From: Polyangium sp. 15x6
Lineage (GTDB): Bacteria; Myxococcota_A; Polyangia; Polyangiales; Polyangiaceae
Assembly (NCBI RefSeq): GCF_029960785.1
Contig: NZ_JASBQE010000061.1
Coordinates: 1 to 64,000, forward strand
Direction: 5' to 3'
Length of the DNA stretch: 64,000 nucleotides
The notes beneath the pieces were generated by a model. It had not been told where the DNA came from. It did no database searches and saw nothing but the letters and a program-made list of their open reading frames with translations. The translations under genes and the position numbers were made by a program. Shown here piece by piece: positions 1-60,172 of this stretch (its first letter is position 1; each line of letters opens with the position of its first letter).

Positions 1-126
1 CACGGGCCCGTCGGATGAACCGCGCATCGCGCGGTTCATCCGCCCTCGGTCCAGGCAGTGCCTGGTCCGGGGTGCAGGGGGCGGACAGCCCCCTGCTGGG
101 GTGCGGGGCAACGCCCCGCTCCGCTG
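1..126. repeat. Right half of the convergent-junction multi-hairpin element (copy R1, truncated by window edge)
   Basis: Contains three or four hairpins in the same order as the right arms of the other copies: a stem built on gatgaaccgcgc/gcgcggttcatc (about 13-42), ccaggc/gcctgg (about 51-65), gggggc/gccccc, and cggggc/gccccg at about 106-120. Relative to the other copies the first stem has C-G pairs where they have T-A, a paired change. It lies directly against the stop codon of the minus-strand kelch gene, so the missing left arm should be outside the window, probably beside the 3' end of a plus-strand gene. Confidence 0.8.
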
Positions 127-6894: not shown

Positions 6895-8343
6895 ATGAAG
6901 CGGAGCATGGTGTGTTTTGCGGCATTTTTCGCCGCGGGTGTCGGGCTCGCGATCGGGTGCGGGGGTGGGCCCGCGGTCGTGCAAAGCAGTGATCAGGCCG
7001 CCGAGCCGCTCTCCTCGCAGGGGAAGCAGGCGAAGACCGAGCCCACGGGAATCACGACCAGCGCGGGGCCCGAGGTGGCGACAGGGCCGACCGAATGGGG
7101 GATCGTGGCGCCAGCGCCGGAGCCGACCGTGAATTACCAGAGCGTCGTGGCGAAGGTCGAGTCGATGATCCGCGACCGCGATGTCCTCGAGGGGGCGAAT
7201 CGCCGCGGTTTGTCGGTCACGAAGGTGACGTGGGAGGACACGGCCCGGGCGAAGGGGTCGTCGCTGGGACCGAACATTTCGGATCTGACGTTGCAGGTGC
7301 GGTTCCACGACGAGAGCGGGAGTTATTACAAGACGGCGCTGATGCCGGTGCTCCGATTTCCGAATTTCACGGACCGCACGGGCGACGTCCCGGCCGACCG
7401 GTTTTTCGTGCGCGTCGGCAATCAGAAGGCAGACGGCGGGTCGATCGAGTCGGTGCCGCTGAAGGACGTGCTCAAGAACATTCGCGCATTCGCCAGCCTG
7501 CCGAGCTCGATCCTCGGCAGCGGCAACCTGCTCGCGCCGCGGGACACGCATTTCCTGGTGAGCGCGCAGGCCGTGTTCCTGCCGATTCCGAAATCCGGTA
7601 AGGCCGAGTTCAACCCGGTCATCTTCAATTATCAATCGGCCCCGAAGTCACCGGCCGTGCTCACGCTCCTGGTGACGCGCGAGGGGACGAGCATCAGCGT
7701 GATCGAGAACCGCCGCGAGGACATGGGCATGCGCGGGGGAGGGCAAGATCTCTATTTCAACAACAAGGGCCAGCGCGCCGCGTTCACGGCCGAGCGCCGG
7801 AGCGACGTGAAGGCGCGCATCGAGGCGCAAGGCGGGCCAAAGACGGAGGCGGATCAGAGCGCCCTCGCAAAAGGAGCGGACGTGCTCTTCTTGGTGCAAG
7901 TGCCGCTCGTGCACGCGAACCGCGGGCAGCTCGGCGGTCCGATTCCGACCATGCCGAGCCTGGAGCCGAAAGGCGGCGGGGCGCCGATGCCCATGGCCAC
8001 GGCCACGACCAAGCCGTCGAAGAAGGCAGCCGACCTCGCAGTCACAGAGGACAGCGACGTGGAGCAAGCGGTGCTCGGCCACGGCCCGAACCTGGGGCCC
8101 TACAACGAGGGGCGAGACCTCAAGCTCGTGCGCGATCCCAAGTTCCCGATCCGGGTGACGGTGCAGTTCTACAAGGCGACGAGCAACGGAGTCGTGGACG
8201 AGTCAGACCTCGACGGAATCGCAAAGTCGATCGGGAGCGTGTACGAGCACGCCGATTTCGTCGGCTCACTCGTAGTGCCGGAAGGAGATCCGCGCAGGCC
8301 GACGGCATGGCAGACAATCCCCGGGGAGTGGTTCCCCTGGTGA
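6895..8343 (+). CDS. Lipoprotein of unknown function
   Basis: 482 residues. The start at 6895 is chosen because it gives a basic n-region, a hydrophobic core and lipobox LAIGC, with a purine-rich ggaggcgaggtgg ribosome site just upstream. The mature protein alternates predicted beta-rich stretches with a Pro/Met/Ala-rich linker near 350-390 and ends with SLVVPEGDPRRPTAWQTIPGEWFPW. No known domain recognised. Its 3' end faces the TPR gene across a convergent-junction element. Confidence 0.85.
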   Translation: MKRSMVCFAAFFAAGVGLAIGCGGGPAVVQSSDQAAEPLSSQGKQAKTEPTGITTSAGPEVATGPTEWGIVAPAPEPTVNYQSVVAKVESMIRDRDVLEGANRRGLSVTKVTWEDTARAKGSSLGPNISDLTLQVRFHDESGSYYKTALMPVLRFPNFTDRTGDVPADRFFVRVGNQKADGGSIESVPLKDVLKNIRAFASLPSSILGSGNLLAPRDTHFLVSAQAVFLPIPKSGKAEFNPVIFNYQSAPKSPAVLTLLVTREGTSISVIENRREDMGMRGGGQDLYFNNKGQRAAFTAERRSDVKARIEAQGGPKTEADQSALAKGADVLFLVQVPLVHANRGQLGGPIPTMPSLEPKGGGAPMPMATATTKPSKKAADLAVTEDSDVEQAVLGHGPNLGPYNEGRDLKLVRDPKFPIRVTVQFYKATSNGVVDESDLDGIAKSIGSVYEHADFVGSLVVPEGDPRRPTAWQTIPGEWFPW

Positions 8344-8349
8344 TGTCTC

Positions 8350-8670
8350 ATGTCGAAGCCGCTGCGCTGGGGCTTCGCCCCAGGCCCCACCAGGGGCTAT
8401 CCGCCCCTGGACCCGGACCAGCGCAAGCGCTGGACCCGGGGTCGATGAACTGCGCGATGCGCAGTTCATCGAACAGGCCCGAGCCAAGACCAGCCACGAC
8501 CCTGCCAGCCAAGACAGCCGCGCTGCCCTTTCGACGGGCAAGGCTCTCTCACCGGCCGTTGGAAGAACTGCGCGGAGCGCAGTTCTTCCACCCCGAGTCC
8601 AGGGCTTGCCCTGGTCCGGGTCGAGGGGCGGACAGCCCCCGCGGGGTCCGGGGCAGAGCCCCGGCGAAGC
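8350..8670. repeat. Convergent-junction multi-hairpin element, copy R2
   Basis: The 335-nt gap between two facing stop codons is filled by two arms of four hairpins each. Left arm: ctggggc/gccccag (8367-8383), ccaggggc/gcccctgg (8390-8410), ccagcgc/gcgctgg (8418-8433), gatgaactgcgc/gcgcagttcatc (8444-8470). Right arm in mirrored order: ggaagaactgcgc/gcgcagttcttcc (8561-8589), ccagggc/gccctgg (8599-8614), ggggc/gcccc (8625-8639), ccggggc/gccccgg (8648-8664). The right arm is close to the reverse complement of the left arm. About 90 nt of less ordered sequence separates them. No coding sequence is evident. Confidence 0.9.
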
Positions 8671-8678
8671 GCTCCGCC

Positions 8679-11600
8679 TCAGGCTGGGAGCGAGAGTGCT
8701 TCCTCCACCCACGCGCGCGCCTTCGCGGCGAGCGCGGACAGGCGCTCGGCGTCCCACATCGCGCGTGGCAGCAGCATCTCGCGGCGGTTCATGGTGTTCC
8801 TCGTGTCGAAGAGCTCGCAGAAGGACAGGAGCGCGAGGGCCTTCCGGAATCGATCCACCGGCGCGCCCTCGTCTTGCTCGTGTAGATACGCCTCTGCGAG
8901 CCGCGCCATGCTCTGGAGCTCGTTCGCTTCCCAGAGGAGGGGGACGTCGAGGAGCCGCTGCGCCGCGCCTGCGTCCCCTCGCGCGAGCGCCTCGTCTGCG
9001 GCGACGACGATACGCAGGTAGTCCCGCGTCAGGGCTTGCGTGGGCGTCCATGACCTCTCCTCCGAGAGCGGCACGCAGAGCGGGATGAGCACCTCGGGCT
9101 CGCACTTGCCTTCCTCGCATGCGGCCGAGCGATCGAGCTCGACGAGCGCCGCCTCCGGTTCGTCGAGCATCATCAGCGTGATCCCGCGCATGTGGTGAAG
9201 GTGCTTGGCCTCCGCGGGCTCGCGGAAGCGCGAAGGATCGACCCCTGCGAGGTGATCCAGCACCTCGCGCCACCGTCCGGCGATGGCGAGCGACCGGCTG
9301 TGTCCCAGCCGGATCCTTGGATGATCGGGGAACCGATCGCATCCAAGCGCGTTGACGAACCCTGCGCTCGTCCCCTCGCGGAGACGAAGAAGCGCGTGCT
9401 CGAGTGCCAAGACCTCGTCGGGACCTGCCTTCCGCCGCGCCCACTCGATGCGCCGAGCGATCCCTTGCTTGCTCTCCCGCCGGAGCGCGCGCTCCTCCGC
9501 GACGGCCGCTGCGAGATTTTTCCCCGTGGGCTTGTGGCAGTCGAGGTGCTTCGCGTGCACCGTGCTCCTGGGCAAGCTCGGGAACTGGAACGCGGCGACG
9601 GCTTCGCCCTCGACGGCCTTCGGGGGCACCGGGCCGAGCGGCACGATCTCGTGGTGATCGTCGTGCGCCACGACCAGCGCCGCGCGCCTCCCGTCGGCGG
9701 TCCCTGCGATCAGCGCCCGCCGGGGCACCCGCACCCGGTACTTGATCGCGAGCCCGTCCTCTCCGTCCTCCAGGCCGAAGAGCAAGCGCCCATCGTCCTC
9801 GAGGTCGAACAGCACGAAGCACATCCCCGTGTCGAGGCTTGCGATCGCCGTCGCTTCGCGCACGGCGTGCACGCCTTCGAACAGACGCATGGGCCGCGCG
9901 CCGTGGGAGTCGATCTCGAAGAAACCCCACCGCGCGGCGCGAGCGTCCTTTGGGCCTTCGGGATCGCTGGTGACGCCGACGATACGCTCACCGTCCGGGG
10001 CTGCGACGACCGAGCGCGCGAGGAGCGCGTCGCTCGGCAACGTGGGGCCAGAGGGCGACCCACGGGAGCCGTAGAAGGTCGTGCGGCCCTCGTCCTTGTC
10101 GTCGTCGAACTGGCAGACGACCACGCGAGGTACCTTCGATCCGACGACCGCGCCCGAGTGGACACGCGTGGCGCGATGCTCGCGGATCTCGCGCGCGAGC
10201 CGCAGGTCCGCGAGATCGTAGACGGAGAGGAGCCGGCGAATGCTGTCTTTCCTGCTGGTCGACAGCGTGTTGAGCCAGAGCCACCGCCCATCCGCGGTGA
10301 CGGTCGCCTCCTCGACGTGCACCTCGGGCAGGACCATCTTGTCGACGTCCTCGAACTCGCGGGTCGGCAGGACCGCGTCACCGTTGCCGAGCACGTTCGA
10401 GCACCACCGCTCGACCGTCCAGTCATCCATGTCGATTTCGAGCAGGCTCGCGCGCTTGCCGGCGAGGAGCAGGCGTCGGTCGCGGATCGCGGCGGCCAAG
10501 AGCTCGATCGGGTTTGGCGTGCGGAGCGTGACGCGCGTGAGGAGCGCTCCCGTCGCCATGTCGATCACGCGGACGAACACCCACGCGTCCCTCGTCTGGG
10601 GGACGATGAGGACGACCTCCTCGCGCCCGTCGCGCATCCGCACGAGCATCGTCTCCCACTTCCACCGCGGCGGGACGCGTGCGTCGTGGAGCTTCGCCGC
10701 CGGGGCTTCGCCTCCCTCGAACGTCTCGACCTGCACCGAGAACTGGCGCCGCACCTCCGCGCGGATCTCCCCGCGCAGGGCTGCGATCCGCGCCGTGTCC
10801 TCGCCCTCCACGCGCGCGGCGAGCTCTTCACACACGGCGAGCGCGCGCAACGTATCCCCCTCGCGCCGGAGCTCTGCGATCGACGCCGCGAGCGTTTGCC
10901 GTTCGAGCTTGCGCTGCACCTCCGTGCGAAACCGATCGAAGACCGAGGCCTCCTCCTCCGGCAGATCCTTTCGTTGCACCTCGCCGAGGATCTTGCTCGC
11001 CTGCGCCGTATCGCCTTCCTCCATCACCCGCCGCGCCGCCTCGACCCGCCCCGTCGCCACGCGCCGACGTTCCTCCGCGATCGCGGCCTGCGCTCGCTTT
11101 CGTACGTCCTCCGCAGGACCGAATCCTTGCAGCACCTTCGCGTGTCCGTCGACGAGCTCCATCGCTGCCTCCGGCGCTCGCTCGGCGATCTCCGCGGCGC
11201 GGTGGAGCGCGACGATCGCGGCCACCGCCGGCTTCACCTTCGCGCCCTCGCCGGGCGGCGTGACGGCATCCATCCACGCGAGGAGCTTCGATCCCGCGTG
11301 CTCCTTCACCTGGATGCGCCCTGCTGCGGGGAGCGCGGCGTACGCGGCGAGCCCCTCGGCGAGCGCGCCCGCGCCGATCATCTCGGCGATCGACGCGGCG
11401 TGCGCTTCGTCTTCCCGCGCTCGGGCCTCGGCGAGCTTCGCGGCGATCCGTCGTTCGGCGGGCGCCGCCTCGTGCTCCGGCAGCCCGAGGCCCTTCGCCG
11501 CTTCGAGCAGCGCGACGGCTTGCACGGTCTCCCCCTGATCGAGCGCATCGTGCGCGTCGTCGAGCTTTCGCCGCGCCTCGTCTCGCTTCTTTTGCTCCTC

Positions 11601-12629
11601 GACACCACGGAGGATCCTCCGGGCGACCTCGCTCTCCGGGTGATCCGCGAGGATCTCGCGGGCTCGTTCTTCCGCCCCGCGGAGATCACCCTCCGCGAAG
11701 AGCCGTGACGCCTCCGCTTCTGCGGGACCTCGCGTCGCGGCCCGCGCCTTCGCGAGCGCGCTCGTGAGGCTGGCGAGCTCCGGGTGTGTGGCGTCCATGG
11801 CTCGTGCCCGCGCGAGATCGTCCGCGGAGACGGCGAGATTTCCCGCCGTGAGCGCGCCTCTCGCGAGCGCCACGAAGATCTCGGCGAGGCGCGCCGGTGG
11901 AGCCTTCGCGTTCGCGGCCGGAAGCAGACGAAGGGCGCGGGCGCGGTCGTCGAGCCTCGCGGCGGCGAGCGCGAGGAGCAGACGCACGTGCACATCGGCA
12001 AGCGTCTCCGCGGGGAGCGTCTCGCCGAGCTCGAGCGCATCCGCGTCGACGCCGAGCGTGGTCACGAGCAGCGAGAGCAGCGCGCTCGCGGCTCGTGCGT
12101 CACCGCCGCTCCGGGCGAGCGCCTCTTCGAGGTGGTTCCGCGCGAGCTCGTAGTCGTACTCCGCGAGCGCATCCTCGGCCGCGCGGAGCAGATCCGGCAC
12201 GGCCTCGCCCGCGCGGCTGCCTTCGTGCGGCCGTGGCGTGGTTTTTCGCGGCGCTTCGGGGGTCGGGATCGCAGGGGATGAGGCCGTGTCGATCACGCGC
12301 TGGACGAAGGAGCGCGCATCGTCGTCGAGCTCCGCGATGACGGCGTGGCAGGCGTCGAGGCCCGAGGGACGATGGTGGAGGAGGACGACGCCGGGCTGAT
12401 CGGGCTCGGGGCGGATCTCGATGTCGTCGCGAAAGTGCGTGACGAGCACGCTCTGGAGGCGGCTCTTCAGGGCATACCGCCGCGCCGTCTCGCGCCGATC
12501 GAGGCCGAGGTCGGTGGGGTTGACGTCGCGGATCAGGGCGACGAGCTCTCGCGCGTCGGGGCGTACCCGGCCGGCGATGACGTCTTCGGGGTCGAGCGAG
12601 GCGCCTCGCTTCTTCTTGTCCTTGGCCAT
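8679..12629 (-). CDS. Large TPR protein with beta-propeller-like middle region
   Basis: 1316 residues. ATG at 12629 (MAKDKKKRG) chosen; a slightly longer frame exists. No signal peptide, so probably cytoplasmic. Residues ~140-600 consist of Ala/Glu/Arg-rich helical repeats typical of tetratricopeptide arrays (for example LFAEGDLRGAEERAREILADHPES). Residues ~630-1010 switch to beta-rich sequence with repeated 'DG R..V' and aromatic turns, suggestive of a propeller. Residues ~1060-1316 return to TPR-like helices. Function unknown; TPR plus propeller suggests a scaffold. It is separated from asd by a 21-bp repeat array upstream. Confidence 0.85.
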   Translation of the reverse strand: MAKDKKKRGASLDPEDVIAGRVRPDARELVALIRDVNPTDLGLDRRETARRYALKSRLQSVLVTHFRDDIEIRPEPDQPGVVLLHHRPSGLDACHAVIAELDDDARSFVQRVIDTASSPAIPTPEAPRKTTPRPHEGSRAGEAVPDLLRAAEDALAEYDYELARNHLEEALARSGGDARAASALLSLLVTTLGVDADALELGETLPAETLADVHVRLLLALAAARLDDRARALRLLPAANAKAPPARLAEIFVALARGALTAGNLAVSADDLARARAMDATHPELASLTSALAKARAATRGPAEAEASRLFAEGDLRGAEERAREILADHPESEVARRILRGVEEQKKRDEARRKLDDAHDALDQGETVQAVALLEAAKGLGLPEHEAAPAERRIAAKLAEARAREDEAHAASIAEMIGAGALAEGLAAYAALPAAGRIQVKEHAGSKLLAWMDAVTPPGEGAKVKPAVAAIVALHRAAEIAERAPEAAMELVDGHAKVLQGFGPAEDVRKRAQAAIAEERRRVATGRVEAARRVMEEGDTAQASKILGEVQRKDLPEEEASVFDRFRTEVQRKLERQTLAASIAELRREGDTLRALAVCEELAARVEGEDTARIAALRGEIRAEVRRQFSVQVETFEGGEAPAAKLHDARVPPRWKWETMLVRMRDGREEVVLIVPQTRDAWVFVRVIDMATGALLTRVTLRTPNPIELLAAAIRDRRLLLAGKRASLLEIDMDDWTVERWCSNVLGNGDAVLPTREFEDVDKMVLPEVHVEEATVTADGRWLWLNTLSTSRKDSIRRLLSVYDLADLRLAREIREHRATRVHSGAVVGSKVPRVVVCQFDDDKDEGRTTFYGSRGSPSGPTLPSDALLARSVVAAPDGERIVGVTSDPEGPKDARAARWGFFEIDSHGARPMRLFEGVHAVREATAIASLDTGMCFVLFDLEDDGRLLFGLEDGEDGLAIKYRVRVPRRALIAGTADGRRAALVVAHDDHHEIVPLGPVPPKAVEGEAVAAFQFPSLPRSTVHAKHLDCHKPTGKNLAAAVAEERALRRESKQGIARRIEWARRKAGPDEVLALEHALLRLREGTSAGFVNALGCDRFPDHPRIRLGHSRSLAIAGRWREVLDHLAGVDPSRFREPAEAKHLHHMRGITLMMLDEPEAALVELDRSAACEEGKCEPEVLIPLCVPLSEERSWTPTQALTRDYLRIVVAADEALARGDAGAAQRLLDVPLLWEANELQSMARLAEAYLHEQDEGAPVDRFRKALALLSFCELFDTRNTMNRREMLLPRAMWDAERLSALAAKARAWVEEALSLPA

Positions 12630-12876
12630 GGGCGTGGGGGGACGGCGTGCCGTTCGGACCATCGGAGGTCCGGACGGGGCGTCGTGTCAAGGGAAGGGAA
12701 GGGGGCCCACGTTGGAATGCTCCCCTCAGCGCGTGGACCGCTCTTCAGGGCGCAGGGGGTGGTCCCGAAGCCCCGGAGAGCCTGCACGTCGCGCTCCGGG
12801 CTACGTGGGACGAAAAAGCAATCGCGTGGGAAGGTCGCGCGGGCCTGCATGAGGCAACGGCACACGCCCGGGGAGC

Positions 12877-12981
12877 GAAATGCTTTTCCGTGGGAGTGAA
12901 ATGCTTTTCCGTGGGAGTGAAATGCTTTTCCGTGGGAGCGAACCGCACTTCCGTAGGAGCGAACCGCACTTCCGTAGGAAG
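12877..12981. repeat. 21-bp tandem repeat array A, five units
   Basis: Three near-identical units beginning gaaatgcttttccgtgg and two beginning gaaccgcacttccgtagg, each exactly 21 bp (starts 12877, 12898, 12919, 12940, 12961). The shared core is TTCCGTRGGAG. The length is a multiple of three so all frames stay open, giving false heptapeptide repeats. It lies in the gap between the 3' end of asd and the start of the TPR gene. Apart from this array and the asd terminator, I see nothing else in 12630-13094. Confidence 0.9.
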
Positions 12982-13049
12982 GTAGGCGTGTGATGTAGCT
13001 TTCTTTACTCGGACCGGTGGGAAGCTCGCTCGAACGTGTCGGAAGGAAC

Positions 13050-13082
13050 GGCAGGGCCGCAGGAACGATCCGCGGCCCTGCC
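13050..13082 (-). terminator. Probable terminator of asd
   Basis: Perfect 11-bp inverted repeat ggcagggccgc/gcggccctgcc with an 11-nt loop, just downstream of the asd stop on the minus strand, followed in that direction by a moderately T-rich gttccttcc. Confidence 0.65.
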
Positions 13083-13094
13083 CTCCCGGCCCCC

Positions 13095-14099
13095 TCAGCC
13101 GACGAGCCGCTCCGCGATCTGCACCGCGTTCAGCGCCGCGCCCTTCCGCAGGTTGTCCGCGACGATCCACAGGTTGAGCGCCCCCGGCACCGCGAGGTCG
13201 TCGCGCACGCGGCCGACGAAGACGTCGTCCGTGCCGGCCGCCTCGCGCGGCTGCGGGTGGTTGCCGGGCGCGTAGGGCTCGTCGAAGAGGCGGACGCCTG
13301 GGGCCCGGCGCAAAAGCTCGCGCGCCTCGGTCGCCGTCATCGGGCGGTGGAACTGCGCGTGCACGGCCTCGCTGTGGCCCGTGACGACCGGGACGCGCAC
13401 CGTCGTCGGCGTCACGCCGATCTCGGGATCGCCCAGGATCTTGCGCGTCTCGTTCACCATCTTGAGCTCCTCCTCCGACCAGTCGGGCAGGCTCCCGGTC
13501 TTCCAGTCCATGAGGAGGTTGCCCGCGAGCGAGCCCGGGAAGATCTTGGCCGTGGGCTCGGCGCCGGCCGCGAGCTCGCGCGTCTGCGAGATGAGCTCGT
13601 CCATCGCCGCGTGGCCCTTGCCGCTCGCGGCCTGGTACGTGGAGACGACGACGTGCTTGAGCCGCGCCGCGGCGTGCAGCGGCCCGAGCGCGACGACCAT
13701 CTGGATCGTGCTGCAGTTCGGGTTCGCGATGATGCCCTTCGGGCGGTTCTTCGCGGCGTCCATGTTCACCTCGGGCACGACGAGGGGGCAGTCCGGATCC
13801 GCGCGCCACGCGCTCGAGTTGTCGATGACCACCGCGCCGCGCGCGGCCGCGAGCGGCGCGAGCTCGCGCGCGGCGGCGGCGCCGGCGCTGAAGAGCGCGA
13901 TGTCCACGCCGTCGAAGGCCTCGGCGCACGCGAGCTTCACTTCGAGCTCGCCGCCGCGGAAGGGGACACGGCTCCCCGCGGAGCGCGCCGAGGCGAGGGC
14001 GCGCACTTCGGTCGCCGGAAAGCGCCGAAGCTCCAGGGTCCGCAACATCTCCCGCCCCACCACGCCCGTGGCGCCCACGACAGCAACGACGCACGACAT
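13095..14099 (-). CDS. asd: Aspartate-semialdehyde dehydrogenase
   Basis: 334 residues, normal length for the family. Reduces L-aspartyl-4-phosphate to aspartate semialdehyde with NADPH, feeding lysine/diaminopimelate, threonine and methionine synthesis. The N-terminus MSCVVAVVGATGVVG is the dinucleotide-binding glycine loop; NPNCSTIQ places the catalytic cysteine at 129; later ..PVVTGHSEAVHAQF and a C-terminal DDVFVGRVR..LNLWIVADNLRKGAA are typical. The start at 14099 is set by the Rossmann loop; an upstream in-frame start would add 12 residues. Single gene followed by a hairpin terminator. Confidence 0.97.
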   Translation of the reverse strand: MSCVVAVVGATGVVGREMLRTLELRRFPATEVRALASARSAGSRVPFRGGELEVKLACAEAFDGVDIALFSAGAAAARELAPLAAARGAVVIDNSSAWRADPDCPLVVPEVNMDAAKNRPKGIIANPNCSTIQMVVALGPLHAAARLKHVVVSTYQAASGKGHAAMDELISQTRELAAGAEPTAKIFPGSLAGNLLMDWKTGSLPDWSEEELKMVNETRKILGDPEIGVTPTTVRVPVVTGHSEAVHAQFHRPMTATEARELLRRAPGVRLFDEPYAPGNHPQPREAAGTDDVFVGRVRDDLAVPGALNLWIVADNLRKGAALNAVQIAERLVG

Positions 14100-14178
14100 G
14101 TGCCCGCTATAGCGCCCGGCGCGCGGTCCGCGCAAGAACGCTGCGCCTCGGCGAGCCGCGCGCTAGCATGCTTGCGTG

Positions 14179-17100
14179 ATGCGAGGCTCCTCCCGCGTTT
14201 CGACGTGCCTCCTCGCGCTTCTCGCGCTCGCGCCGCTCACGTCGCTCACCGCGACAGGCTGCAAACCCGGCGCCTCGGGTCGCGCGGTGCAGGGGGCTCC
14301 TGCTCCCGCGGCGAACGCTGCGGCCGTCCCGGAAAAGCTCGTCCCGATGGTCTCGCCGTCGCGGCTCTTGCCCGACGTGCGCGGCGATCGCGGGTTCGTC
14401 GCGTACGAGGCGGGCGCGCGGCGCGTGCTCGTCGATCGCATGCGGCTCATCGTGTACGAGGACGGGACGACGGAGCGAGCGAACGAGCTCTTGCCGCTCG
14501 GTCACGTGAACGCCGTGGCGCTGCCGAGCCGGCTCGGCGGCGGGTTCGTCTTCCACGCGACCTCGGGCGGCGGCACGCAGCTCTGGCGGGCTTCGTCGTG
14601 GCTCGGAAAGCTGCGGCCGCTCGTGCAGTTCTCGTCGACGACGAGCGAGGTCGTCCCGGGGTTCGACAGGCTCTACCTGCGGCTCACCGCGAACGGAAAG
14701 CTCGTCGCGGTCGATCCCGAGTCGGGCGAGGTGCGTTCGCTCGCGCCGCTTCCGCCGGCCGCGGCGTACGGCGGGCTCGCGTTCGCCGACGGGTTCACGG
14801 GGGTCGTCGACGCCGATCTGCGCGGCGTGCTCGCCACGTTCGACGCGGGCGCGACGTGGAGGCCGCTGAAGCTCCCCGAGCGCCCCGCGGCGATCTCGAT
14901 CGCGGGCGGCGAGCCGACGATGTTCGTGGCAGGCGGGAAGTACGTGCTCGATGCGCGCGGCAACCTGACCTTCCGCGCGAACCAGGTCGCGACGGACGAC
15001 GAAGGCGACGTGACCACGGCGGCCGCGCCGAAAGGCCCGTTCGGGAAGAAGGTGCTGCGCGCGGCCGTGGAGGACGGTTTTCCCGACACGCCGCGCACGG
15101 CCGTCGTCGCGCGGGCCGGGGCGCTCGCGCGCGTGTCGCTCGACAAGGGCACGATCGTCGATCTGAACCTCACGGCGTTCCCCGAGCGCGAGGCGAACTG
15201 CCACGCGGTGCGCCTCGGCGCGTCGTACGGGTTCGTCTGCGGGGAGCGCGAGGGGCCGACGAACGTGTACGCGTTCGTGCCGCCACTCGCGATGCAGAAG
15301 GTGCTCTCGTTCAAGGGTCCGCGGTTCGTGTCGGCGAACGGCGCGGGCGCGCTCGTGGTGCGCGGGACGTGCGGGGACAGCGAGAGCGAGGCGCGAGGGC
15401 CGGGCGCGAAGGCGGCGAGCGCGGCGAGCGACGCGGGCACGCGCGTGTACTGCGTGCGCGCGGCGAGCGGGGCGACGCGCGAGGTGCGGGTGAAGGGGGA
15501 TCTCGGGGTCGAGCGGGTCGTGGCGCTCTCGGACGAGCGGGTCGCGATCCTGGTGCCGCCGCGCGCGGGCAGCACGGGGCAGCTCACGATCCTGAAGGGC
15601 GCGGAGATGACGAACGTGCCGCTCGCGCTGCCGCAGAAGCCGCGCAGCGTGGCGCGCGAGCTCAGGCGCGGGATGTGGCTCGAAGGGTTCGAGGAGCGCG
15701 AGCCCGGCGTGCTCGGCGGCTGGGTCGAGGCAGGCGGGCCGGTGATCGGCGTGCGCGTGAAGCTCGACGGCACGGTGACCGCGGGCGAGGCGCGCGACAA
15801 CGAGAACGGCGTGGTGATCTCGGGTCGGTTCGCGCTGTCGCCGGGCGAGGGCGGGCGCGCGGCGGAGTCGAGCGACGGGGGCATGACGTGGAAGGTCTTC
15901 GATCTGCCCGAGCACGACGTGGAGCCGGGCGACGCGCCGACGCGGGCCTGCGGGCCCGTGGGGTGCGTGCTCGCTGGCTGGATCCGCGTGGGCTGGGGCA
16001 AACCCGCGATCTCGGGGGATCTCGGCTCGGCCGAGGCGCCGCCGTCGCTCTACGTGCCGGTGAAGACGACGCCGACGGTGCGCGTCTCGTGCGCGCCCGT
16101 GGGCAAACCCGTCACCGAGCCGCTCCCGGACAAGCCCGCGAAGAAGGAAGTCGCGGTCGCGCCTCCGCCGCCCGGCATGGGCGGCTTCGGCGGCTTCGGC
16201 GGCTTCGGGCGCATGCCGCCGCAGCCGCAGAAGACGCCCTGGAGCACGTTCCGCAACCTGCCCGCGCCGACGCTGGAGAAGGACGAGATCGGGATCGACA
16301 ACGGCGCGCCCTACGATCTCGTGAGCCTGCGCGCGTACGCCTGGGGCAAGAAGGGCTCGGACTGGTCGCGGACGGGGCATTTCCTGGTGCGATTCGACGA
16401 TCGCTTCGATCCCGCGGGCGGCGTTCGATCCACGGCGACGAGCGCGCCGCCCTGGCCCGACGAGATACAGGCGGCCGAGGGGATGGGCGTCGGCTCGTAC
16501 CCGCTCGCGTCGTGGGGATCGTTCCTCGATCCGAGCGGCCGTCACGCGCTTTCGCACGTGTGCCGAGGCACGAGCTGCTCGCTGCTCGCGGCGAGCGAGG
16601 GGCAACCGGTGTTGCTTCTGCGCGACGCGGCGGGGCGGACGACGGGGTTCGCGAGGCCGCTGCCGCAGGGCGCGGTGCGCCTCGGCGAGAGCTGGTTTCT
16701 CCTCGTGCAGGGCGTGTCGTACGACACGGTGACGCTGCACCGCGTGGATCTCGGCGTCATGCGCCTGGTGACGTCGTTCTACCGGCCGAGCCCCTCGCGG
16801 TACGCGCTGCCGGAGCCGCCGCGGCTCGTGCGTCGCGCGCTCGGGACGGGTCTCGGGCTTCTCGTGACGAGCATCCCGGATCCAGGCGATCGTTTCGGCG
16901 GGATGTACGTGCACCCGCTCGATCCGGAGACGGGCGCAGTGGGCGAGCCCATCGCGCTCGGCAAGCGAGATCTCGGCGGGATGCTGCCGCCGCGCTGCGC
17001 GGAAGGGCAGGACGGCTGGATCATGGATACGTCGCTCGACGCGTCGCCCGCGGTGGATATCCCAGGCGGGCGGGCCGCGCTCGACTCGATCGAGATGCGG

Positions 17101-17286
17101 CTGCGTGTCGATCCAGGATCGGTGTGCGTGGAGGGGATCGCAGCGCGTCTCGACGGGACATTCGTGCCAGACAAGGAGGCGAAGGCGTCGCCCGCAGAAA
17201 AACCGTCGCCGGCCGGGGCGGTGCCGCTCGCAGCGACGGAGCGATCGACGGGGCGGCGGTGGAACTTCGCCTGCAGTCGGCGCTGA
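14179..17286 (+). CDS. Large lipoprotein with Asp-box/propeller-like repeats
   Basis: 1035 residues. The signal ends in lipobox LTATGC. Two S/F-x-D-x-G-x-T-W Asp-box-like motifs (FDAGATWRPL near 215, SSDGGMTWKVF near 565) and many DG/VDPESGEV turns suggest beta-propeller folding as in BNR-repeat proteins. A Gly/Phe-rich insertion (GMGGFGGFGGFGRMPP) lies near 670. Cysteine pairs (RACGPVGC, VCRGTSC) suit an exported protein. ATG at 14179 is preferred over the adjacent GTG at 14176. No enzymatic motif seen; surface binding is only an inference. Confidence 0.85.
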   Translation: MRGSSRVSTCLLALLALAPLTSLTATGCKPGASGRAVQGAPAPAANAAAVPEKLVPMVSPSRLLPDVRGDRGFVAYEAGARRVLVDRMRLIVYEDGTTERANELLPLGHVNAVALPSRLGGGFVFHATSGGGTQLWRASSWLGKLRPLVQFSSTTSEVVPGFDRLYLRLTANGKLVAVDPESGEVRSLAPLPPAAAYGGLAFADGFTGVVDADLRGVLATFDAGATWRPLKLPERPAAISIAGGEPTMFVAGGKYVLDARGNLTFRANQVATDDEGDVTTAAAPKGPFGKKVLRAAVEDGFPDTPRTAVVARAGALARVSLDKGTIVDLNLTAFPEREANCHAVRLGASYGFVCGEREGPTNVYAFVPPLAMQKVLSFKGPRFVSANGAGALVVRGTCGDSESEARGPGAKAASAASDAGTRVYCVRAASGATREVRVKGDLGVERVVALSDERVAILVPPRAGSTGQLTILKGAEMTNVPLALPQKPRSVARELRRGMWLEGFEEREPGVLGGWVEAGGPVIGVRVKLDGTVTAGEARDNENGVVISGRFALSPGEGGRAAESSDGGMTWKVFDLPEHDVEPGDAPTRACGPVGCVLAGWIRVGWGKPAISGDLGSAEAPPSLYVPVKTTPTVRVSCAPVGKPVTEPLPDKPAKKEVAVAPPPPGMGGFGGFGGFGRMPPQPQKTPWSTFRNLPAPTLEKDEIGIDNGAPYDLVSLRAYAWGKKGSDWSRTGHFLVRFDDRFDPAGGVRSTATSAPPWPDEIQAAEGMGVGSYPLASWGSFLDPSGRHALSHVCRGTSCSLLAASEGQPVLLLRDAAGRTTGFARPLPQGAVRLGESWFLLVQGVSYDTVTLHRVDLGVMRLVTSFYRPSPSRYALPEPPRLVRRALGTGLGLLVTSIPDPGDRFGGMYVHPLDPETGAVGEPIALGKRDLGGMLPPRCAEGQDGWIMDTSLDASPAVDIPGGRAALDSIEMRLRVDPGSVCVEGIAARLDGTFVPDKEAKASPAEKPSPAGAVPLAATERSTGRRWNFACSRR

Positions 17287-17291
17287 GGGGA

Positions 17292-17600
17292 GCGTAGCGC
17301 CGGGGTTTCACCCCGGACCCGACGAGGGGTTGTCCACCCCTCGACCCGGACCAGCGCAAGCGCTGGACCCGGGGCGACAGCGCGCGATGCGCGCAGTCGA
17401 CAGGGAAGACGTCCCCAGCACGTACGGCAGCGCTGCTGTCTCGCTGGGCAAGGCCTTCGTGGTCTTGCCACGGCCTCTGTTCGATGAACTGCGCATCGCG
17501 CAGTTCATCGACCCCGAGTCCAGCGCTTGCGCTGGTCCGGGGTGCAGGGGGCGGACAGCCCCCTGCTGGGGTGCGGGGCAAAGCCCCGCGCATGCGCATC
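17292..17600. repeat. Convergent-junction multi-hairpin element, copy R3
   Basis: Fills the 331-nt gap between facing stops. The left arm has ccgggg/ccccgg around 17300-17317, gaggggt/acccctc-type and ccagcgc/gcgctgg (17352-17367) stems, with a diverged fourth stem. The right arm has gatgaactgcgc/gcgcagttcatc (17483-17509), ccagcgc/gcgctgg (17520-17535), cagggggc/gccccctg and cggggc/gccccg. The right arm of R3 is nearly the reverse complement of the left arm of R2, showing the dyad design. The middle ~80 nt differs from the other copies. Confidence 0.88.
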
Positions 17601-17617
17601 CCTGTGACAGCACCCTC

Positions 17618-18391
17618 TCAGGGTTTTTTCGCGATGACGATGTACTGGTCGGGTAGGGTTTCCTGGATGGTCTCGGCCTTGAGGCCTGCGGCCTCGAGCT
17701 CGGCGATCATCGCCTCCGGCGTGATGCGGTGCTCCTTCGGCGGGCCCTTCGTGGCCTCCATCGTGAAGTCGACGATGACGAGCAAACCGCCGGGCTTGAG
17801 GCCGTCTTTGAGCTTCGCGGCGTAGTCCTTTCGTCCGTCGATGTGGTGCCACGTGTCGACGATGAGCACGCGATCGACGGTGGCCTGCCCGAGCCCCGGA
17901 TCGGACAGCCCGACCTGACGCGCCTCGACGTTGTCGAGCTTCTCCTTCACCGCGCGCTCGCGCAGGTAGCGCACCATGTCGGCCTCGACGTCGAGGGCGA
18001 GCACCTTGCCGCTCGGCCCGACGGCGCGCGAGAGGTGCGGCTCGAAGTACCCGGTGCCCGCGCCGATGTCCGCGACGACGAGGCCCGGCGTGATGCGCAT
18101 CGCGGCGACGACCTCGGCCGGCTTCTGCCACGCGTCGCGCGCCGGATCGTCGAACTCCTTGGCCCAGTCCTCGGCCTTCTCGAAGCGATGCACGAGCGGA
18201 CCGCCGTGCCCGTGATGGCCGCCGCCATGCCCGTGATGCGGTTTGCCGGGGAGTGCCCCATGCCCCTGGGTTTGCCTCGCCACGAGCTCGTCATGCGGCA
18301 TCGTCTCCGCCGTGCTGTAGACGGGCTTCGGGGGAGGTTTGCTCGCACAGGCGATGACGGGAAGCAGGAGGAGGCAATGGTAGGGCCGCAT
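17618..18391 (-). CDS. Lipoprotein with class I SAM-dependent methyltransferase domain
   Basis: 257 residues. ATG at 18391 gives a short hydrophobic leader with lipobox-like PVIAC. Residues 52-68 are a His/Gly cluster (HHGHGGGHHGHGG), possibly metal-binding. From about 95 follows a class I methyltransferase fold: VVADIGAGTGYF (SAM loop, 107-116), VLALDVEADMV (acidic residue after strand 2), VDRVLIVDTWHH, LKPGGLLVIVDF and a C-terminal ETLPDQYIVIAKKP. SAM is not known outside the cytoplasm, so either the leader does not export the protein or the domain has another role. It sits 11 bp after trmO in the same orientation. Confidence 0.88.
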   Translation of the reverse strand: MRPYHCLLLLPVIACASKPPPKPVYSTAETMPHDELVARQTQGHGALPGKPHHGHGGGHHGHGGPLVHRFEKAEDWAKEFDDPARDAWQKPAEVVAAMRITPGLVVADIGAGTGYFEPHLSRAVGPSGKVLALDVEADMVRYLRERAVKEKLDNVEARQVGLSDPGLGQATVDRVLIVDTWHHIDGRKDYAAKLKDGLKPGGLLVIVDFTMEATKGPPKEHRITPEAMIAELEAAGLKAETIQETLPDQYIVIAKKP

Positions 18392-19311: not shown

Positions 19312-19326
19312 TGGGCTCGGGGGTTT

Positions 19327-19479
19327 GGGGGCGAAGCTCGGCTCGCCGAGCGTAGCCCCCAAGCGTAGACCATCAATGGGGGCGAAGCTCGGCTCGCCGA
19401 GCGTAGCCCCCAAGCGTAGACCATCAATGGGGGCGAAGCTCGGCTCGCCGAGCGTAGCCCCCAAGCGTAGACCATCAAT
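19327..19479. repeat. Perfect 51-bp x3 tandem hairpin repeat
   Basis: Three identical 51-bp units at 19327, 19378 and 19429. Each is a 34-nt imperfect palindrome (gggggcgaagctcggc, TC loop, then gccgagcgtagccccc; 14 of 16 pairs) plus a 17-nt spacer aagcgtagaccatcaat. The last unit ends one base before the stop codon of the esterase gene, and the first ends at the start of trmO. Unit length is 17 codons, so the array can be read in frame with trmO. Confidence 0.95.
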
Positions 19480-34649: not shown

Positions 34650-34908
34650 GCGGCGATGGTAGGCCAGCGTGTGGGGGCGGCAAGGCGAATCAGCGCGGGA
34701 AATCTGCGGCGGTCAGGACAAGGCTTACGCCTCGCCGTGCGCGGGCGATGTCTGCTCGACTTCACCGGTCTCCGGGTCCACGTCCTCAATGGGCTTGCGC
34801 TCGCGCAGGTAGCGGCGGATCGCCTCGTTCCGCACGAGGATCGGCCCTCGCCGCGCGCCGCGGGCCTTTCGATCGGCGCCGCTGTCGGAGGGATACTCGC
34901 CGAGGATC

Positions 34909-35223
34909 GATGTCCCGCGAGGGCGGGATCGTTTTCGGGAAGGCCGGGGCGATGTCCCGCGAGGGCGGGATCGTTTTCGGGAAGGCCGGGGCGATGTCCC
35001 ACGAGGGCGGGGAGACGTCCCGCGAGGGCGGCCCGGCGTCCCGCAAGGGCGGGGCGATGTTCCGCAAGGGCGGGCCGGCGTCCCGCAAGGGCGGGGTGAT
35101 GTTCCGCAAGGGCGGGGTGATGTTCCGCAAGGGCGGGGTGATGTTCCGCAAGGGCGGGGCGGTGTTCCGCGAGGGCGGGCACGCGTTCCGCAAGGGCGGG
35201 GCGGTGTTCCGCGAGGGCGCCCA
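34909..35223. repeat. 21-bp tandem repeat array B, fifteen units
   Basis: Fifteen consecutive 21-bp units. Units 1-4 alternate gatgtcccgcgagggcgg-type and cgttttcgggaaggcc-type (a 42-bp duplication); units 8 and 10-12 are gatgttccgcaagggcgg-type. The core TTCCGCRAGGGCGG recalls array A (TTCCGTRGGAGCG). All frames remain open, producing low-complexity pseudo-proteins on both strands. In the rest of the 614-nt gap (34650-35263), I see only a 60-residue minus-strand stretch ending at 34725 (..[26 protein letters not shown]) that looks protein-like but has no start codon of its own. Confidence 0.92.
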
Positions 35224-35263
35224 ATGTGTGCAACCGGAATCTTGGGAGAGGGGACCGACCGCC

Positions 35264-37354
35264 TCAGTTCCCTGCGTCGAGGAGCGGCAGCGTGCCGACG
35301 TTCTCGGGGAGAGGGCCGTCGAACACGGTGCTTCCACCGGCGGTGAGCTTCAGCGTTCCGCCGGCCTGGTCTTCGCCGAAGACGACCTCGACGCTCGTTC
35401 CGTCGTCGAAGGCCACGCTTGCGCCAATCGTGCCGGCGCTCGACGTCGGCGTGGAGGTTGCAATCGTGCCCCCCTTCGCGAGCAGCGTCAGGAAACGTGC
35501 ATGTCCGCCCGCGGCCGGGTCGCTGACGTCGAGCCGGTAGCCGCCGCTCATTTCCGCTTCGAGGGATGGCCAGGCGAGCACCTCTGCGCTCGGGAGCGCG
35601 GGGAAGAGCGGCTTTACCTCGAGGGAGCCTTGCGCGCCGCTCACCTCCCACCCCTCGCCGAGGGTTTTTGGCATGATGGGCGCATTGAGCTGCCACACGG
35701 CCTGGGCGCCGTCGTTCGTGTCCACGCGATCCATCACCAGGTAGGCGCCTGGCCCCTTCAAGAAGAGCACCTCGCGATCCACGCGGCCCACGGCCGCTTT
35801 GCCGCCGTAGACGGGCGTGATGTCCGCGCGCAGGTAAAGGAAATGCGGCGTATCGTGCAGGGCCACCAGGTGGGCCGCGCCATTCTGCATCGTGACCGTG
35901 GCGCCGTTCTGCTCGATGCGCACGAGGTTGTGCGCCTCTTCGTTCTGGTAGATGCCCGATTGGGACTGGATGTTCTGATCGTAGGCGAGCCATTCGCCCT
36001 GGTAGATCAAGAGCGAACCCTGGTCGCGGTGCGCGTGGCTCTCCGTGAAGGGGCCGGCGATGAAGGCGCCCCACGAAGCTTTCGTGTCCCAGCCGTTCCG
36101 GAAGTAGACGCTCCCCGTGCCCGGCGCGTGGTAGGTCGGGTGCAGGTCCGAGAGCGGGCGTTTTCCGTGCGCCTGCTTGTAATAGAGGAAGTCGTCGATG
36201 TACATGAACCGCTGATCCATCTGCGGCACCGCGCAATCGTCGAGCCACGTCTGCGCCACGTCCGTGAGCGGATCGTCCGGGCCGAGCAGGTGGGACAGGG
36301 TCAGCACGTACGAGCGGTGATAATCGAAGAGGGCCGCCGTGCTGTCGCGCGCGTGGTCGCCGATCGGCGCGACGCGATCGAGCGTGGGCACGGTGGAATG
36401 GAGGAAGCTCGGCAAGGACGCGCGCGTGTGGCCCGTGAGATCCCAGATCCGCTCGCCGGTGCTCGATTCCCACAGGTCGTAGAGCCGGAAGAGGTTCTTC
36501 ATCGCCACGCCATAACCGGTCCCCTCGCGTGAACCGCCGCCCTGGAGATCACTCGTGAACGTGGGCACGAGCTCGTTCTGGATCTTCGTCACGCGGAACG
36601 TGTCGATCCACGTCTGCGCGCTTTCGTGCTCTCCGAGGGACGTGAGGCCGAGGAGCATCGTCGCGCGCAGGAAGGAGTAATAGTAGTTGTTCGAGGGGTT
36701 CTCGATCGACCAGCCGCTCCACGGATAGGAGACGCCTCCCCAGCTCGCCTCCTCCGGGTGCCACACGTTCCAGACCGCCTGGTTGGCATAAGCGAGCCAG
36801 CGGGTGCGCTGCTCGGGCGTGGTGGCGTCGAAGCACCAATCGTGGACCAGCGCGAGGTCGCCGATGGTCTCGCCGACGTGGAGGTAGCTGTCGAAGGCCA
36901 CCTCGGCGCGCTCGCCGGCGGCGATCAGCGCCTCTTCCGCGGCCACGCGCGCTTCGACGGTGTCGACGGCGTATTTGCAATAATCCGCCTCGCCGGTAAG
37001 AGCGCCGAGGAGCGCGGCGAAGTGCGCCTCGAATGCGTAGACATTGCCGTTTTGCAGGTGGCCGTCCACCATGTCCCGGAAGCGCACGGCGGCCGGTTCG
37101 GCGCTTGCGAGCGCGGAGGAGAGTCGCGTGTGGTTCGCCTCGTTCAGGTAGATCCGCGGGTGTTCCGCGGGGATGACCGGGCCGCCCCCGCCGGCGGCGC
37201 CGCTCCCTCCCGTACCGCCGGAGCCGCCCTCCGCCGTCCCACCGCCGCCGCCCTGCCCGCCGGTGCCCGTGCTCCCGGGCGTGTCCGAGCAGGCCGCCAT
37301 GAACAGAGCCGCGAGTGCCGCGGCAGAGCTGAAAAATAGTCTGGAAGAAATCAT
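35264..37354 (-). CDS. Heparinase II/III-type polysaccharide lyase lipoprotein
   Basis: 696 residues. Signal with lipobox FMAAC, then a ~40-residue Gly/Ser/Thr linker. [14 protein letters not shown] opens an alpha/alpha-toroid domain (about 65-400), followed by a beta-sandwich domain. The junction contains [22 protein letters not shown], the heparinase II/III signature with its His-x-His and Asp. The family cleaves uronic-acid polysaccharides by elimination, suggesting surface degradation of such a polymer. Substrate cannot be named. It follows the W/Y-rich lipoprotein gene after an 87-nt gap containing an inverted repeat. Confidence 0.87.
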
Positions 37355-41831: not shown

Positions 41832-41854
41832 GCATTGGTCTCATGAGGAACCGC

Positions 41855-42130
41855 CGCGCCGGGGTTTCACCCCGGGCCCGACCAGGGGTTGTCCACCCCT
41901 GGACCCGGACCAGCGCCAGCGCTGGACCTTTCATGGAAGAACTGCGCGTCGCGCAGGTCTTCCAACCGGCCGGTGGGACCGCGTTGCCGGTTGAAAAGCC
42001 AGGCCTGTGCGATGAACTGCGCACCGCGCAGTTCATCGTCCCGGGTCCAGCCCCTGGCTGGTCCGGGTCCAGGGGCGGACAGCCCCTGGTGGGGCCTGGG
42101 GCAACGCCCCAGCGCAACGGCTTCGACACG
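41855..42130. repeat. Convergent-junction multi-hairpin element, copy R4
   Basis: Occupies the 328-nt gap between facing stops. Left arm: ccgggg/ccccgg near 41859-41876, ccaggggt/acccctgg (41882-41902), ccagcgc/gcgctgg (41910-41925), ggaagaactgcgc with gcgcaggtcttcc (one mismatch). Right arm: gatgaactgcgc/gcgcagttcatc (42010-42037), ccagcc/ggctgg (42047-42061), ccaggggc/gcccctgg (42069-42090), ctggggc/gccccag (42096-42112). The ccagcc/ggctgg stem is a paired change relative to ccagcg/cgctgg elsewhere. Confidence 0.88.
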
Positions 42131-42159
42131 AGACCCGTGCGCAGCCCCGTGCGCGGGCG

Positions 42160-44488: not shown

Positions 44489-44493
44489 CTTCT

Positions 44494-44806
44494 CGAGGCC
44501 GCTGCGCTGGGGCGTTGCCCCAGGCCCCACCAGGGGTTGTCCACCCCTGGACCCGGACCAGCGCAAGCGCTGGACCCGGGGTCGATGAACTGCGCGATGC
44601 GCAGTTCATCGAACAGGCCGAGGCAAGACCAAGGGCGACCCTGCCAGCCAAGACCGCCGCGACGGGCAACGCTGTCCTGGTCTTGCCACCGGCCGGTGGA
44701 AGAACTGCGCATCGCGCAGTTCTTCCATCACGAGTCCAGCGCTTGCGCTGGTTCGGGTCGAGGGGCGAACAGCCCCCGCGGGGTCCGGGGCAGAGCCCCG
44801 GCGCGG
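44494..44806. repeat. Convergent-junction multi-hairpin element, copy R5
   Basis: Fills the 336-nt gap between facing stops. Left arm: ctggggc/gccccag (44507-44523), ccaggggt/acccctgg (44530-44550), ccagcgc/gcgctgg (44558-44573), gatgaactgcgc/gcgcagttcatc (44584-44610). Right arm: ggaagaactgcgc/gcgcagttcttcc (44698-44726), ccagcgc/gcgctgg (44736-44751), ggggc/gcccc, ccggggc/gccccgg (44785-44801). The centre holds a further inverted pair, gcaagacca (44623-) with tggtcttgc (44679-), and resembles R2 closely. Confidence 0.9.
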
Positions 44807-44824
44807 CGACCCCAAGCAAAGACC

Positions 44825-45532
44825 CTAAACGCGCGCTCGCTTTAGCGCTGCGGCCAGCACCTCGTCGAACATCGCCGCCGTGAGCCGGCCCGTCTGCGTG
44901 TTCTGCTGGCTCACGTGGTAACTGCCGAACAGCCACGCCTGGCCCCTGCCGCCGCGCGGATCCGGGATTTCTGCGCGTGCTCCGTGGGCGAAGGGAGGCG
45001 CGGCGGAGACATCGCCGTGCTTCTTGGCGAGCGTGAGGACCGCGTCGTAGCCGGTTTTTCCGAGCGCGAGGTAGGTGTGGGCCCGGTCGAGCAGCGCGAG
45101 CTCGGCTTCGAGCCAGGGGCGGCAGGAAGCGAGCTCGGCCGGCGTGGGCTTGTTCTCGGGCGGCGCGCAGCGGCATGGGGCCACGATGAAGGCGCCCGTG
45201 AGCGTCAGGCCGTCGCCGCGGCGCACGCTCGTCGGCTGCGAGGCGACGCCGGCTCGGTGGAGCGCGGCGTAGAGGAAATCGCCCGAGCGATCCCCCGTGA
45301 ACATCCGGCCCGTGCGGTTGCCGCCGTGCGCGGCTGGCGCGAGGCCCATGATGATCAGCGTGGCGTCGGGGTCGCCGAAGCCGGGGATCGGGCGGCCCCA
45401 GTAGGTCTCGTCCCGGTAGGCGCGGCGTTTGACGCGCGCGACCTCTTCGCGCCACGCGACCAGACGATCACAGCGGCGGCACTCGACGAGCGCTTCGTGC
45501 AAGAGCTCGAGCGAGCGCCGCTTGCTCGTCAT
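44825..45532 (-). CDS. Uracil-DNA glycosylase, family 5-type
   Basis: 235 residues. Removes uracil from DNA in base excision repair. Cysteines for the Fe-S cluster appear at VECRRCDR and APCRCAPP/ELASC. Motif A is GLAPAAHGGNRTGRMFTGDRSGDFLYAAL and the C-terminal motif is SYHVSQQNTQTGRLT, both typical of UdgB/family 5. The start ATG at 45532 overlaps the stop of the upstream lipase gene by ATGA, indicating translational coupling. Confidence 0.93.
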   Translation of the reverse strand: MTSKRRSLELLHEALVECRRCDRLVAWREEVARVKRRAYRDETYWGRPIPGFGDPDATLIIMGLAPAAHGGNRTGRMFTGDRSGDFLYAALHRAGVASQPTSVRRGDGLTLTGAFIVAPCRCAPPENKPTPAELASCRPWLEAELALLDRAHTYLALGKTGYDAVLTLAKKHGDVSAAPPFAHGARAEIPDPRGGRGQAWLFGSYHVSQQNTQTGRLTAAMFDEVLAAALKRARV

Positions 45533-59999: not shown

Positions 60000-60172
60000 C
60001 TCGACGCAGCAGGTTTCCTGGCTCCCGGATCGTCCTCGGGCGGACCTTCCCGCGCGTTCGCGCCTCCCCGGCTCGCACCAGGGAAGAGCTCTCCGCGCAG
60101 TGGATCTTCCGCCTTCGTCCCCGGCTACAGTGGCGGGGGCCGCGCCGGCGTTGGACCGGCTTCCCTGTTGTC
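60000..60172 (-). promoter_or_regulatory. Cobalamin (B12) riboswitch
   Basis: Read on the minus strand, the conserved blocks occur in order: aGGGAAgCCGGTCcAA near 60168-60150, GCgGcCCCCGCCACTGTA near 60144-60125, GGGACGAAGGCGGAAGA, tCCACTG, GGGAAGG, and the diagnostic GAGCCAGGAAACCTGC at 60024-60009. These match the cobalamin aptamer consensus. It sits about 160 nt upstream of the lipoprotein gene at 58631-59842 on the same strand, with no intervening gene. The GC-rich expression platform between 59850 and 60000 can form several hairpins. Confidence 0.93.

Follow-up and report, generated by a model that had tools for sequence, protein, structure and literature searches.

The window analysed here is the whole stretch of 64,000 nucleotides under study. 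It corresponds to bases 1-64000 of contig C233 (71 kb in full) of Polyangium sp. 15x6, whose draft genome amounts to 13.38 Mb in 275 contigs. Four convergent gene junctions of the window are each filled by one structured element that reaches from stop codon to stop codon (Table 1). A sequence-only reading had placed one element in each of these gaps with correct coordinates and gene map, and the 3-nt gap that it gave for the remaining convergent pair (51878/51882) is confirmed. Its inventory of four copies holds as far as it goes but overlooked a fifth copy, truncated where the window begins.

The gene before element 4 is real, since it matches Grx4 glutaredoxin with 148.1 bits against a cut-off of 117.1. 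The left end of element 3 retains the terminal repeat CTGAGCATTGGTCTC, and the left gene stops at the TGA of this repeat. Folding of two copies gave z = -15.5 for element 1 and -15.0 for element 3, and none of 100 shuffles folded equally well. At the curated threshold, an Rfam scan of the window returned no match to the elements, the sole match being a cobalamin riboswitch elsewhere.

Table 1. Position of the elements, their arms and other features of the window
Feature	Position	Strand	Description
Element 1	8344..8678	+	type B/C; between convergent genes 6895-8343(+) and 8679-12629(-)
Element 1, left arm	8361..8472	+	class B, four hairpins
Element 1, right arm	8560..8670	-	class C, four hairpins
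Element 2	17287..17617	+	type A/D; between genes 14179-17286(+) and 17618-18391(-)
Element 2, left arm	17293..17397	+	class A
Element 2, right arm	17481..17588	-	class D
Element 3	41832..42159	+	exceptional A/B pairing; between genes 38757-41831(+) and 42160-43446(-)
Element 3, left arm	41853..41964	+	class A
Element 3, right arm	42011..42119	-	class B
Element 4	44489..44824	+	type B/C; between Grx4 glutaredoxin gene ending at 44488(+) and uracil-DNA glycosylase gene 44825-45532(-)
Element 4, left arm	44501..44612	+	class B
Element 4, right arm	44697..44807	-	class C
Fifth, partial copy	1..126	-	cut by window start; arm about 14-118, adjoining the stop of the minus-strand gene ending at 127
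21-nt tandem repeats	12850..12975		unit GGGAGTGAAATGCTTTTCCGT; inside tandem gap 12630-13094
51-nt repeats	19326..19479		unit with its own dyad, three perfect head-to-tail copies, just before the gene ending at 19480
Repeats spaced 21 nt	34866..35264		about a dozen, at the border of overlapping candidate reading frames
Cobalamin riboswitch	60011..60166	-	Rfam RF00174, 66 bits; upstream of minus-strand gene 58631-59842

Architecture of the element

We compiled an own-genome sample of 1,616,077 bases from eight contigs chosen for strong matches or for the window. Because contigs were picked for matches, the density of copies in this sample is biased upward, while the placement statistics should be less affected. 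An arm profile search found 128 arms that make up 77 elements (51 two-arm and 26 single-arm). In the later target-site and between-species comparisons, palindromic matches to hairpin 4 alone, which had given many spurious overlaps of plus- and minus-strand arms, were removed by a score cut-off.

In a member of the family, which is about 330 nt long, a homologous centre is flanked by a left and a right arm, each made up of four local hairpins; the ends are terminal repeats, a minority of which still read CTGAGCATTGGTCTC. The alignment of 103 arms contains 35 pairs in the four hairpins, and 96.2 % of the cells are paired compared to 89.5 % in shuffles. Changes on both sides of a pair account for 225 cells (77 in shuffles), and shifting the hairpin partners by 1-3 columns brings pairing down to 34-45 %.

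We defined four arm classes (A, B, C and D) from the sequence of hairpin 1. The two-arm copies comprise 28 B/C, 9 A/D, 7 A/C, 1 B/D, 2 A/A and 1 A/B, plus 3 with one arm unclassified. The element is polar: 45 of the 48 classified two-arm copies join one A or B arm to one C or D arm. Single-arm copies are found for class A (12), B (7), C (4) and D (2), with 1 unclassified. The sequence-only reading had described the right arm as an inverted copy of the left around a variable centre, and neither part of this description is borne out. B and C arms are 80.5 % identical within one element and 81.2 % identical between different elements, and the centre is homologous among copies and aligns in one direction. 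We therefore reject a symmetric dyad, as arms of the same element are no more alike than arms from different elements. Arm identities, class pairing and the directional centre together indicate that local hairpins and polarity are kept, not a long dyad.

A recognisable GCATTGGTCTC-like tip is present at 22 ends among 199 arms scanned (12 of 128 in the own sample and 10 of 71 in regions from relatives), the other ends showing none; one copy, in the sister genome G002, has an intact terminal repeat of this kind at both ends. The tip motif is preceded by TGA in 19 of the 22 ends and by CTGA in 18. At 9 of the 22 ends the flanking gene is called to stop at this TGA and at 10 it is not, so that the TGA appears to be part of the element. 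Among stop codons beside arms, TGA accounts for 62 of 95, below the genome value of 878 of 1158 called stops (p 0.017); being rarer and not commoner beside arms, TGA is no required target. Among 122 two-arm copies of several species we detected no target-site duplication: no offset stood out, and the longest flanking repeat measured 4.78 nt compared to 4.66 nt (sd 0.08) with shuffled partners.

Placement at gene ends and empty sites in sister species

Junctions were derived from the calls of a dicodon gene caller (score of at least 28) and not from the reference annotation. On these calls, 70 junctions accommodate 71 of the 77 elements: 45 of the 212 convergent junctions are occupied, 18 of the 726 tandem ones and 7 of the 216 divergent ones. 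The remaining six elements are at contig ends, each adjoining the 3' end of its one neighbour gene. Compared to all other junctions (25 of 942), the excess at convergent junctions corresponds to an odds ratio of 9.9 (Fisher p 1.4e-18). Expressed per kb of gap, there are 2.04 occupied junctions for convergent, 0.20 for tandem and 0.12 for divergent pairs. The median convergent gap is 14 nt when unoccupied and 335 nt when occupied. The convergent bias is a strong enrichment, not exclusivity. The sequence-only reading had supposed a strict placement; the excess that it predicted is found, but tandem and divergent pairs make up 25 of the 70 occupied junctions. Likewise its statement that tandem and divergent gaps are free of copies is correct for the window and its whole 71-kb contig (on which 4 of the 6 convergent junctions have a copy, and none of the 28 tandem and 7 divergent ones), but such copies, and single arms, exist elsewhere in the sample, outside the window. 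The two-arm tandem copies (n = 14) include 11 in forward-strand pairs, with an arm 3-44 nt past the upstream stop codon, and in 10 of these 11 pairs the arm is farther from the downstream gene than from the upstream stop.

For the comparison with sister species we used 16 regions tiled for synteny and not for elements, with query stretches from element-rich contigs and the 3.8-kb contig L137 omitted. The 61 convergent comparisons (43 junctions) were empty in both species in 36 cases, filled in both in 15, filled here only in 10 and filled in the relative only in none. The corresponding numbers for 199 tandem comparisons (137 junctions) are 189, 2, 2 and 6, and all 69 divergent comparisons (44 junctions) were empty. 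When a copy is present in either species, occupancy is shared in 15 of 25 convergent compared to 2 of 10 tandem comparisons.

The family is mobile. The idea of a mobile element, which the sequence-only reading had offered as one alternative, is directly supported by empty orthologous sites in sister species. At convergent junctions the element lies at or between the two stop codons, and in most of the empty alleles these stop codons abut. In the 10 comparisons filled here and empty there (8 junctions), the stop-to-stop gap of the relative is -4, 0, 1, 1, 2, 2, 2, 5, 120 and 313 nt. Eight of the 10 (7 of the 8 junctions) are within -4 to +5 nt, compared to 40 of 167 unoccupied convergent gaps in the host genome (Fisher p 5e-4, computed on comparisons). 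For one of these gaps, at C77:84521, the gene calls give 2 nt and the alignment gives -1.

Three elements of the window can be followed in this way, the gene pair around element 3 having no conserved counterpart in the sister species. The site of element 1 is empty in G004 and G005, with a gap of 2 nt each, and holds a different copy in G002. The site of element 2 is empty in G005 (gap 0) and has a shorter copy in G004 (248-nt gap), while G002 carries a different copy there with intact terminal repeats abutting both stop codons. The site of element 4 is empty in G005 (gap 1 nt), is a 120-nt spacer devoid of arms in G004 and is filled in G002. Elsewhere, C198:327815 is an empty site in both G004 and G005, the genes at C198:279109 overlap by 4 nt in the empty species with the element exactly between them here, and at C198:303602 the relative has a 313-nt gap lacking the element. 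The counterpart of the window's tandem gap 12630-13094 in G002 and G005 contains a copy of the family. Two single-arm copies, C198:296941 and C198:308088, are located at synteny breaks, as if the family seeds rearrangements.

Element-holding loci fetched from the relatives constitute a biased set and map to nine distinct junctions of our own sample, all of which are occupied here. Some of these copies are orthologous, being about as identical between species as their flanks, and others are of another class or in opposite orientation, so that one junction can hold different copies in different species.

Copies inherited in place keep their hairpins through compensatory change. In nine orthologous pairs, covering all or part of the element, divergence amounts to 9.0 % of sites in stems and 16.0 % at unpaired positions. 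Both sides have changed in 29 pairs compared to 6.2 expected if the sides were independent, and 26 of these 29 are still paired. One-sided changes in orthologous copies broke 60 pairs and kept 19 paired. Selection on the hairpins fits these observations; hairpin-templated repair could give the same sign.

Distribution, mobilising enzyme and possible origin

Among the genomes searched, the family is largely confined to Polyangium. An arm pattern that recovers 110 of the 128 arms with no false match in the 1.62-Mb sample was counted in six Polyangium genomes (G000 557, G001 51, G002 495, G003 271, G004 268 and G005 220) and in six genomes of other genera of the family Polyangiaceae, where it occurs 0 or 1 time each; a reversed-pattern control gave 0 in all twelve. 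A blastn search with element 1 over 39 genomes matched its own genome and the other five Polyangium genomes and 0 of 33 others. Under strict filters, a covariance model run over 183 genomes of the order found the six Polyangium genomes plus one locus in each of two other genera, scoring 61.8 and 41.6 bits compared to 106 to 138 bits among the matches listed in Polyangium. An exact 29-base arm pattern was also matched to the GTDB collection, and among the matches listed (at least 73 loci) all are Polyangium. The better of the two loci outside the genus, L154:163-275, belongs to another genus of the family and is an arm-like match with four hairpins of its own, upstream of an ORF starting at 351; the weaker one, L155:1501-1608, lies close to a stop codon by our reading.

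Six of 14 contig ends fetched (from C77, C133, C198, C233 and C242) terminate in an arm. This suggests that the repeat breaks the assembly and helps explain the 275 contigs of the draft.

Y1 transposases (PF01797) were matched in three of the six Polyangium genomes and not in G002, G004 and G005, which carry 495, 268 and 220 arms respectively; four Y1 loci fetched from other Polyangium genomes contain no arm. On present evidence we reject mobilisation by a RAYT. Facing arms frame stretches of 1.6 to 4.0 kb in three places (L212, C198:297052-300119 and C209:243715-247754) that encode seven proteins in all, among them beta-propeller-repeat, TPR and hydrolase-like proteins. None of the seven matches a transposase in Pfam, and four are devoid of any match over the Pfam cut-off. 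A fourth pair of facing arms, 363 nt apart on C133, is a wide element. End motifs were located at an arm in 16 of 17 cases, the exception being a lone end (CTGAGCATGGGTCTCAT...) at L126:15928 in G005 that resembles a truncated remnant.

The ORF beside the arm-like match L154 encodes a protein (P0001) for which no Pfam or NCBIfam match was found at E up to 0.01 and which has distant relatives on 10 plasmid records of Rhodococcus, Paraburkholderia and others. With no match in the six Polyangium genomes, P0001 is not the mobiliser here.

We hypothesize, with somewhat better than even confidence, that these elements form a non-autonomous mobile family of Polyangium that is aimed at, or survives at, abutting stop codons and that probably acts there as a bidirectional structured 3' end. 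A putative enzyme would insert the element preferentially at the 3' ends of genes. The terminal TGA may aid insertion, as it can serve as a stop codon so that the gene ends at the element. The hairpin arrays would then act on transcripts from both sides, so that genes otherwise nearly spacerless would be separated by a termination barrier or a structured 3' end. Such a possible terminator, barrier or insulator role, which the sequence-only reading had also considered, is compatible with the maintenance of hairpins in place and with the shared occupancy at convergent junctions. Counting against our proposal are the orthologous pairs broken one-sidedly, the under-representation of TGA, the two empty alleles of 120 and 313 nt, the scarcity of recognisable tips, and the searches that found neither a target-site duplication nor a transposase with these ends. 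In a bolder form, which we put forward as a doubtful conjecture, the machinery might recognise abutting convergent stops, or colliding transcription, the stop-codon tips would keep the genes intact, and the host might keep the element as a portable bidirectional terminator separating overlapping genes.

A purely parasitic MITE-like element, inserting unspecifically and persisting at convergent junctions as the least harmful location with no role for the host, is in our estimate unlikely, at about one chance in a few. Pneumococcal repeats and IS elements show a like bias that was read in this way by the authors, as far as the available part of that paper goes (PMC3049150). The tandem copies also look less stable than the convergent ones judging by shared occupancy (2 of 10 and 15 of 25), and divergent junctions are seldom occupied. 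Against it, near-spacerless convergent sites of -4 to +5 nt have been struck, whereas in the sample the tandem gaps, which add up to about 90 kb, and the divergent gaps, with 57 kb, have 18 and 7 occupied junctions, and the hairpins are maintained in place. The opposite extreme, a host-owned bidirectional terminator or insulator that is inherited vertically, does not move and differs between species through losses, would account for the 15 of 25 convergent comparisons with a copy here that are also filled in the relative, for the fact that 0 of the 36 comparisons empty here are filled there, and for the several orthologous copies with element identity close to flank identity. We consider it quite improbable: the alignments of empty sites disfavour it, since the empty alleles are mostly clean stop-to-stop junctions, copies at one and the same junction may differ in class or be oppositely oriented, and tandem and divergent copies exist, with six tandem comparisons filled in the relative only.

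Least of all do we expect an element of chromosome organisation, such as a landmark of the ter half or a topological barrier that absorbs supercoils between converging polymerases, a reading to which we attach very little probability. Its support is a regional bias. In the near-complete G005 (C1, 13.24 Mb), 62 of 73 loci of one exact arm subtype are in the half far from dnaA (p 9e-10), and none of the 73 comes closer than 1.65 Mb to dnaA, identified by its strong match at 11.65 Mb; a weak second match to PF00308, at 4.43 Mb, was disregarded. Copies are scarce on contig C209 of the host genome, which over one stretch matches a part of G005 located 0.9 Mb from dnaA: 3 of its 44 convergent junctions are occupied, compared to 42 of 168. 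Accessory genes and mobile DNA often build up away from the origin, however, and this general tendency explains the far-half accumulation with no need for a function; the mapping moreover covers one arm subtype.

Should the targeting in our proposal be real, the family would insert into a safe harbour, the ends of genes, which would be of use in engineering and in studying how mobile DNA locates a stop-to-stop junction. Should the barrier role be real, sister species would provide natural pairs of the same convergent junction with and without the element, and thus a direct test of the cost of transcription collision in a dense GC-rich genome.

Comparison with known repeat families

The sequence-only reading knew of no described family with this layout. 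Our literature searches agree: among titles and abstract starts on Polyangium and myxobacterial repeats we found no description of this family or of its stop-to-stop precision, and the only match to strings of four GGGGC..GCCCC hairpins was a Torque Teno mini virus paper. Its convergent 3'-end bias, on the other hand, has precedents in the accessible portions of earlier papers. REPs are mostly located between convergent or tandem genes and, in two genomes, the convergent ones are mostly less than 20 bp from the 3' end (PMC3733652). The pneumococcal repeats BOX, RUP and SPRITE are over-represented between convergent genes, SPRITE having been proposed as a co-opted terminator (PMC3049150), and stem-loops have been described as clustered at 3' ends (PMC1590033).

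The likeness to REP, BIME and REPIN sequences lies in high-copy palindromic repeats with a convergent or tandem 3' placement that are often thought non-autonomous, as described in the available part of PMC3733652; the location mainly 3' of genes is the same in our sample. The Polyangium unit differs in being a 110-nt array of four hairpins within a polar 330-nt element, compared to a palindrome of 20-40 nt for a REP. Of the 103 aligned arms, 15 have the GTAG tag of REPs at the corresponding place, and 14 of these 15 belong to class A, which has 22 rows in the alignment; the CGTC tag is near the arm start in 6 of 103. REPs have a cognate RAYT (IS200/IS605-like), whereas three of the six Polyangium genomes, all of which carry the family, gave no Y1 match.

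SPRITE, BOX and RUP are likewise interspersed structured repeats with a convergent excess, according to the same portion of PMC3049150. The Polyangium element is distinguished by a GC-rich composition, two different arms, the lack of a T-tract in the two copies scanned and insertion at abutting stop codons as seen from the empty alleles. As with MITEs, an example being the Correia elements named in the available text of PMC3049150, the copies are short, non-coding, structured and numerous, and presence or absence varies at orthologous sites; at a minority of ends there are what look like matching terminal repeats. Unlike MITEs, the family has no detected target-site duplication, is GC-rich and is placed unusually tightly at 3' ends, and the stretches framed by facing arms yielded no parent transposon. 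Intrinsic terminators share with it a GC-rich hairpin soon past the stop codon, one set per strand. The Polyangium element differs by its four hairpins in series, its dispersed copies and the lack of a T-tract in the scanned elements: a consensus scan of 8000-18000 for a hairpin followed by a T-tract found none inside element 1 or 2, one short terminator match straddling the right edge of element 2 at 17612-17624. Given the REP and pneumococcal repeat literature, as far as its accessible portions go, a convergent bias is a known kind of behaviour; the family itself, its polarity and its stop-to-stop precision are what our searches found no description of.
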